The position numbers and the translations under genes are program-made. The notes below the pieces were generated by a model that was not told where the DNA came from, ran no database searches, and saw only the letters and a program-made list of their open reading frames with translations. 33,235 nt of DNA, taken from positions 1 through 33,235 of the forward strand of contig JACPAY010000013.1 in assembly GCA_016180575.1 (NCBI GenBank). Reading direction: 5' to 3'. Below, in pieces: positions 93 through 13,521 of the stretch. How positions within the stretch are numbered: the stretch's first letter is position 1; the number at the start of each line of letters is the position of its first letter. The DNA comes from Candidatus Omnitrophota bacterium (GTDB lineage Bacteria > Omnitrophota > Gorgyraeia > Aquiviventales > Aquiviventaceae).

Positions 93-98
93 GGGTTA

Positions 99-392
99 AG
101 AGTTGGTTTCACAACCTCGCGCGAGCCGCGTTGCGCGCGCCAGGCGGCCAGCTCCAAGGAACGACGACGCCGGCGTACTGGGGTACCAGTACGTCAAGGA
201 GGAGTGACGCCGGAGATGGCCGCCTGCCGCCGCAACCGTAAGTCGTGACGATGGGCTGGGCCGATCTGCGTCGCATCGCGTCGTCGCTCGTCGTCGCCAT
301 ACTTCCGCTCCGTCAGTATGCCTTCCTCCTCGCTCCTCGCGCTGCTCGCAGCTCGGCCCAGCGCGGCCGCGGGAGGTTGTGAAACCAACTCT
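99..392. repeat. 294-bp inverted-repeat element with 20-bp perfect arms
   Basis: The left arm AGAGTTGGTTTCACAACCTC (99-118) is the exact reverse complement of 373-392. The interior holds further palindromes, including GTACTGGGGTACCAGTAC at 176-193, and GC-rich segments, and shows no convincing gene. The right arm overlaps the stop codon of the PilZ gene (391-393). Such an arm pair with a structured non-coding interior suggests a MITE-like element or a large structured RNA, but nothing shows which. It accounts for the roughly 300-base gene-free stretch here. Confidence 0.75.
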
Positions 393-753
393 ACGCGGGT
401 GACGAGCGGGCGGCCAGCCGTTGGCGGACAAAGCGGGAGATGGCTGCCCGGTGCTCGTCGCTCATCTCCGTGAAGTAGATCCCGACGTGGTAGCGTCCCC
501 GCTCGGCGGAGTCGACGATCGGCTCCGTCCGGACGACCGCGCCTTCCCCGCGGATGCGGACGCGGCGCGCGCCGTCGGGCAGCTCGAACTCCAGCTGCAG
601 CTTCGTCATCGGCGCGAGGAACCGGTCGATCACGCAGTAGGCCCCGATCGTGCTGAGGTTCTTCGTCTCTGCGCGGAACTCCGTCGCCTCGCCGCGCAGG
701 GCGAGCCATACCCGCTCCTCGACCCGCGGCGCCTGGCGCCGGTCCGAGCTCAT
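391..753 (-). CDS. PilZ domain protein (c-di-GMP binding)
   Basis: A 120-residue single-domain PilZ protein. Near the N-terminus it has RRQAPR, which supplies the RxxxR c-di-GMP-binding motif, followed about 25 residues later by NLSTIGAY, corresponding to the D/NxSxxG motif; a predicted beta-barrel with VGIYFTEM follows. PilZ proteins bind cyclic di-GMP and relay it to motility, polysaccharide export or secretion machinery in the cytoplasm. The ATG at 751-753 is chosen because the motif begins directly after it; upstream in-frame sequence is only the palindrome separating it from the HIT gene. Start codon and ribosome-binding region lie inside that palindrome. A second PilZ protein is encoded at 2816-3166. 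Confidence 0.85.
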   Translation of the reverse strand: MSSDRRQAPRVEERVWLALRGEATEFRAETKNLSTIGAYCVIDRFLAPMTKLQLEFELPDGARRVRIRGEGAVVRTEPIVDSAERGRYHVGIYFTEMSDEHRAAISRFVRQRLAARSSPA

Positions 754-10808: not shown

Positions 10809-10827
10809 CCCCGCCGCCTACCGGGTG

Positions 10828-10992
10828 GTGTCTCAATTTGGCGGGTGACGCAGAGCCGGGGACCCCGTCGCCTGCCCGCAGGCGAAGGCCGAGGACAGCC
10901 GACGGGGTGGCGGCGTCCTTCGACTCGGCCTTCGGCCTCGCCGAGCGACCCACGGGAGTCGAGGGACGGCAGGACCCGCCAAATTGAGACAC
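10828..10992. repeat. Palindromic element A, 19-bp perfect private arms
   Basis: GTGTCTCAATTTGGCGGGT (10828-10846) is the exact reverse complement of 10974-10992. Between them lies the family core GGGTGACGC...GACAGCCGACGGGGTGGCGGCG (module A) joined to module B, TCCTTCGACTCGG...GAGTCGAGGGACGGCAGGACCC. The outer 15 bp of the arms occur in no other copy. Located between the lepB stop and the lipoprotein promoter, with no T-tract, so not an ordinary terminator. Confidence 0.9.
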
Positions 10993-10998
10993 GACTGC

Positions 10999-13391: not shown

Positions 13392-13521
13392 CCCAATACC
13401 TCCGCAGGCGGGTCCTGCCGCGCCGCCACCCCACCGGCTGTCCTCGGCCTCGTCGGCCTGCGGGCAGGCGGCGGGGTCCCCGGCTCCGCGTCACCCGCCT
13501 GATGGGATTGGGATGGAGGCT
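13383..13521. repeat. Palindromic element B, arm copies lepA start
   Basis: AGCCTCCATCCCAAT (13383-13397) is exactly inverted at 13507-13521. Its left arm contains the lepA start codon and the next two codons. After an internal loop the arms continue as AGGCGGGT/ACCCGCCT and enclose the family core in reverse orientation. The lepA ribosome-binding site lies in the internal loop. Confidence 0.9.

Follow-up and report, generated by a model that had tools for sequence, protein, structure and literature searches.

A putative MITE family with a conserved folded core and exchangeable ends in Omnitrophota genomes

The window analysed in this work, a stretch of 33,235 nucleotides from contig JACPAY010000013.1 of a Candidatus Omnitrophota bacterium, carries near its left end a non-coding element lying between two genes (Table 1). 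To its left, a minus-strand gene probably begins with GTG at 92, as suggested by a membrane-helix-like translation and by conservation of the junction in the congener G001; it has no Pfam match. The right neighbour encodes a PilZ-domain protein, and its stop codon, a TAG at 393-391 on the minus strand, is composed of the target TA and the first G of the element, so that the overlap of the right arm with the PilZ stop described in an earlier note on this DNA holds. The same note had described a 294-bp element with perfect 20-bp arms. The arms are indeed exact reverse complements (99-118 and 373-392), with pairing that reaches 25 nt at 96% (99-123/368-392); the length needs correction, since the element proper is 292 bp and is flanked by target-site copies. 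A 19-bp arm allowed up to three mismatches had no further match within the window (0 expected in shuffles). Open reading frames inside the element are spurious only, a 111-aa frame crossing it has no Pfam match, and neither an intrinsic terminator nor a sigma-70 promoter was found at this copy.

Table 1. Features of the window copy and its flanking genes.
Feature	Position	Strand	Basis
Membrane protein gene, probable start (GTG, 92-90), cut by contig edge	1..92	-	
Left target-site copy, TAA, TNA type	97..99	+	G001 empty site; TNA flanks across copies
MITE body, 292 bp	100..391	.	No coding capacity detected
Left terminal inverted repeat (GAGTTGGTTTCACAACCTC...)	100..123	+	Arm pairing
Inner hairpin H1	130..237	+	CGACGACG opposite GAGGAGGAG: tandem G.A/A.G mismatches between C-G pairs
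Inner hairpin H2	253..364	+	Resembles the reverse complement of H1; minus strand has a related motif
Right terminal inverted repeat	368..391	-	Arm pairing
Right target-site copy, TAC, imperfect	392..394	+	Flanks across copies; empty-site comparison
PilZ-domain gene, approximate start	391..753	-	Pfam PilZ 5.6e-11; empty-site comparison

In G001, which belongs to the same genus, the locus is empty: the sequences corresponding to 1-98 and to 395 onwards meet at GGCTCAAGCC, where the target TCA, read as TGA on the minus strand, serves as stop codon of PilZ, and the occupied site of the window is longer by exactly 292+3 bp. Two more empty sites could be aligned, at a TGATG stop-start overlap between fusA and rpsJ (G001) and at an ATGA overlap between cofD and GH57 (G020), neither of which gave a clean target duplication. 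Across copies with GAG arms the right flank is TNA in 27 of 30, and the left and right flanking 3-mers are equal in 16 of the 30, against a shuffled mean of 8 and with none of 5000 shuffles as high; copies starting with GAA have TA/TA flanks in 11 of 16 cases. GAG-armed copies are thus associated with 3-bp TNA duplications and GAACCGG-armed copies with TA, while a perfect duplication is missing in several copies, among them that of the window (TAA/TAC).

The searches yielded 75 distinct copies or fragments, of which about nine lie in the window's own genome, a 1.3-Mb MAG in which the better-matching copies are 73-82% alike, and the remainder in related MAGs. A single-copy occurrence, which the earlier note had named as counter-evidence, is therefore not what is seen. 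The element is present in 16 of 40 relatives. Within the family 16 of 27 genomes carry it, and copies with GAGCCGG arms occur in a second family of the class. Named records bearing copies are Omnitrophota MAGs, one set of them labelled Planctomycetales. Viral contigs searched for the element gave no match, which speaks against an origin in viruses; integron attC sites also seem unlikely, as only CCTAAC-type arms resemble R boxes and the copies are dispersed without arrays. Among the individual copies, the one in L090 has in its second half (element 1491-1829) an inserted hairpin repeat of ~48 bp of the GTCGAG/CTTCGCTC type, and L204, L211, L214, L220 and L221 hold truncated remnants in which one arm stands alone, in some cases continuing into a few bases of the core.

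The earlier note had also remarked on arms that touch gene ends. At 32% of element borders a long reading frame ends, compared to 4.7% at positions taken at random from the same flanking sequences. The most frequent stop offset is -2, where a TAG is formed from the target TA and the G of the element, the other offsets being stops within the arms. Copies sit between co-directional essential genes (fusA/rpsJ and secY/adk) and upstream of ndk. The position of the arms at gene ends follows from target choice, from the stop codons in the element ends and from loss of harmful insertions, and the pattern is explicable without any gene-regulatory role.

A candidate source of transposase was found by searching for GAACCGG ends, which identified an intact 919-bp insertion sequence at L183:1501-2419 of the relative G022. 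It has the 20-bp end TAGAACCGGTTTCATAAATG on both sides, TA flanks and a two-frame IS4/5-type transposase (DUF4096 6.7e-27, DDE_Tnp_1 5.3e-16). The end of the GAACCGG-type MITE differs from that of the IS at one of 20 bases. Judging by its IS4/5 domains, size of ~0.9 kb, terminal inverted repeats and short target, this IS belongs to the IS5 family, within which it may be IS427/IS1031-like. The naming of the IS427 and IS1031 subgroups of IS5 follows PMC2516522 and PMC3196728. In G007 the same transposase domain adjoins a GAACCGG-type end, and in G010 several contigs end less than 100 bases from a GAACCGG-type IS end. When genomes were searched for the DDE_Tnp_1_2 and DUF4096 domains, only G022 and G007 gave the IS, the window's own genome having no match to either domain. 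No transposase with the GAGTTGG ends of the window copy was found among 384 genomes of the phylum, which are fragmented MAGs where multicopy ISs often break contigs; the search for this end returned only MITE copies, including those of the second family of the class, and one isolated weak match in G115. Mobilisation by an IS5-family transposase thus appears well supported for the GAACCGG arm type, and we infer it for the other arm types.

In nearly all full copies 20-22 of the 22 terminal bases are complementary. The arms fall into the types GAGTTGGTTTCACAACCTC, GAACCGGTTTCATAAATCC, GAGTGCGTCCCAGAATCTC, GAGCNCCTAACANAATNNC and GAGCCCATCCCTAAACC, with ACTGATGTC-like arms in a more distant subgroup. 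An apparently unusual feature of the family is that near-identical cores bear different arms, which would be exchanged in matched pairs: the cores of L077 and L034 are 93% identical and their arms just 57%. Among close copy pairs the arms show 130 double and 10 single changes, which indicates that arms are replaced as matched sets, whereas the inner helices, with 36 double and 68 single changes, drift and are then compensated. Two copies, L046 118-406 and L057 1484-1779, carry different arm types on their two sides and are either recombinants or assembly chimeras; they were left out as proof of recombination because assembly chimeras are possible at repeats.

The window element matches its own minus strand along its full length, and its two halves are therefore related by dyad symmetry. 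Either strand alone is predicted to fold into a Y, in which an outer stem bears a pair of inner hairpins (z of -9.5 and -9.4 relative to shuffles); the interior palindrome GTACTGGGGTACCAGTAC forms part of the apical stem in the first of the two hairpins. In a consensus structure of 31 copies, 96.8% of cells are paired and double changes occur in 43 of 85 pairs, so that the compensatory changes whose absence the earlier note would have held against a folded element are present. When the partners were slid by 1-3 columns pairing fell to 33-47%, and pairs with double changes to 15-18; it should be noted that relatedness of the copies affects the shuffle control and that the structure came from the same alignment, and is thus favoured over its slid versions, so weight is placed on the size of the gap. 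H1 contains four tandem G.A/A.G double mismatches (columns 65/66, 69/70, 72/73 and 75/76) separated by Watson-Crick pairs, and six of the eight positions are conserved in 29-31 of the 31 copies, the remaining two in 21 and 23. The opposite strand of H2 has a sequence related to this G.A motif, although less regular. These alignments suggest a core held to a precise fold across genera, from which we infer a selected function of the core.

The reading that we consider very probable is that of a MITE which is mobilised in trans by IS5-family transposases. The MITE identity proposed as one option in the earlier note agrees with a length within 50-500 bp, no transposase gene, terminal inverted repeats, target duplications, many dispersed copies, empty sites and, for one arm type, an IS with matching ends. 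A transposase from an IS elsewhere would bind both arms and move the element into TNA or TA targets, and insertions at gene ends and operon junctions would be tolerated and persist because the stop codons TAA and TGA fit TNA, the target TA joined to the element's initial G reads TAG, and additional stops lie in the arms. Selection on the fold of the nucleic acid would maintain the core with its tandem G.A block, the selected form probably being single-stranded or cruciform DNA during transposition and less likely a transcript. That near-identical cores bear different arm pairs suggests that arm exchange entails a switch to another transposase; speculatively, copies might recombine within the core, after which the hairpin would serve as a template for matching the second arm. 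A bolder version, which we regard as possible though somewhat doubtful, holds that selection acts on the folded core in its own right. The core would then be a module of structured DNA (or RNA) whose tandem G.A duplex is recognised by a protein, and it would persist by exchanging its ends among IS5-family transposases with different target rules.

Covariation could also arise free of selection if template switching during replication corrected imperfect palindromes and so perfected arms and stems mechanically. The almost solely matched changes of the arms are what such correction would produce, and it may act there; as an account of the whole element we think it rather unlikely, given the many one-sided changes in the inner helices and given that it would turn the G.A/A.G mismatches of H1 into Watson-Crick pairs. 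Their near invariance amid covarying helices thus favours selection on the fold and disfavours simple palindrome correction in the core. The strong covariation could also reflect a structured RNA that has spread as a repeat and acts in the transcript, its fold bringing an upstream stop near a downstream start so that operons keep working, and the MITE being also an RNA element. The copies between co-directional essential genes and the lack of a detected terminator at the window copy fit this account, as does an excess of G.T over A.C wobbles in the helices (45 to 25); the excess shrinks, however, to 34 to 25 without one wobble-rich column, leaving no clear strand bias. The element is moreover nearly its own reverse complement with both strands folding equally, the operon copies inspected occur in both orientations, and Rfam gave no match near threshold, all of which makes a role in the transcript improbable. 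Movement by a Y1 transposase related to TnpA-REP, as in REP/RAYT systems, is extremely improbable: a Y1_Tnp gene is found in the window's genome and in 18 others of the family, but some genomes that bear copies, among them G015 and G024, lack it, and a 292-bp element with terminal inverted repeats, target duplications and an IS5-type match does not fit such a system.

MITEs are usually viewed as decayed leftovers of insertion sequences that are held together by their ends alone. The present family contrasts with this view in having an interior that keeps a precise fold across genera and ends that are swapped in matched sets and differ in their target duplications. To our knowledge each of the ERIC/RU, Correia/NEMIS, RUP and Chunjie families has one type of terminal inverted repeat, whereas the Omnitrophota core occurs with at least five. 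REPINs are far shorter, are tied to RAYT Y1 transposases and are not known to have IS5-type inverted repeats and target duplications. The resemblance of our element to REPINs is that both are palindromic miniature mobile DNA in bacteria (PMC3116915), and to the prokaryotic MITE families listed above that all are non-autonomous, palindromic, mostly intergenic and predicted to give folded transcripts (PMC10969869). With IS427/IS1031-like members of IS5 it shares short TA/TNA targets and, for one arm type, the 20-bp ends of the 919-bp IS, but inside it holds no transposase and does not recognisably resemble the inner part of the IS, which makes it a type II MITE as defined in PMC10969869. QMITE1 of Coxiella burnetii, a MITE of 300-400 bp with terminal inverted repeats of 21-28 nt and direct repeats of 2-4 bp, is similar in its very stable fold and in overlapping the C-terminal ends of genes; it is from an unrelated lineage and is reported to have no orthologues elsewhere, and arm exchange, a covariation-supported core and a tandem G.A block are not described in the parts of that paper drawn on here (PMC5896051). 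A literature search found no paper joining Omnitrophota with miniature inverted-repeat elements, and the comparisons point to a new and structurally unusual MITE family, the novelty of which would lie in a conserved folded core whose end types can be exchanged. If this is true, a non-autonomous element with a structural function of its own hops between transposases, and it would offer a natural system for asking whether DNA fold matters in DDE transposition, together with a simple rule for the position of such elements on stop codons.

A number of further repeats were noted. The distant subgroup with ACTGATGTC-like ends (L071, L083, L091, L092, L100 1705-2002 and L108) has no clear target duplication, and several of its copies sit immediately upstream of gene starts, for example those of adk and ndk. 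Elements of about 145 bp with GAACCGG-like ends and a different interior containing GGTGATT repeats (G008, L172 1377-1520 and L185 1501-1650) apparently represent a second MITE with similar IS ends. Within the window, a palindrome ATCCCGCCACCTGCGGCAGGTGGCGGGAT is found where the PilZ and HIT genes meet (about 750-782), and a short palindromic repeat CCCTCGACTCGCTTCGCTCGCTCGGG at 1127-1175 has numerous matches in relatives. A separate element at 10825-10995, whose ends are inverted (GTGTCTCAATTTGGCGGGT / ACCCGCCAAATTGAGACAC) and whose interior is repeated, has relatives at 13408, 18474, 23245, 30759 and 33010 and is probably what the earlier note called the other element family.
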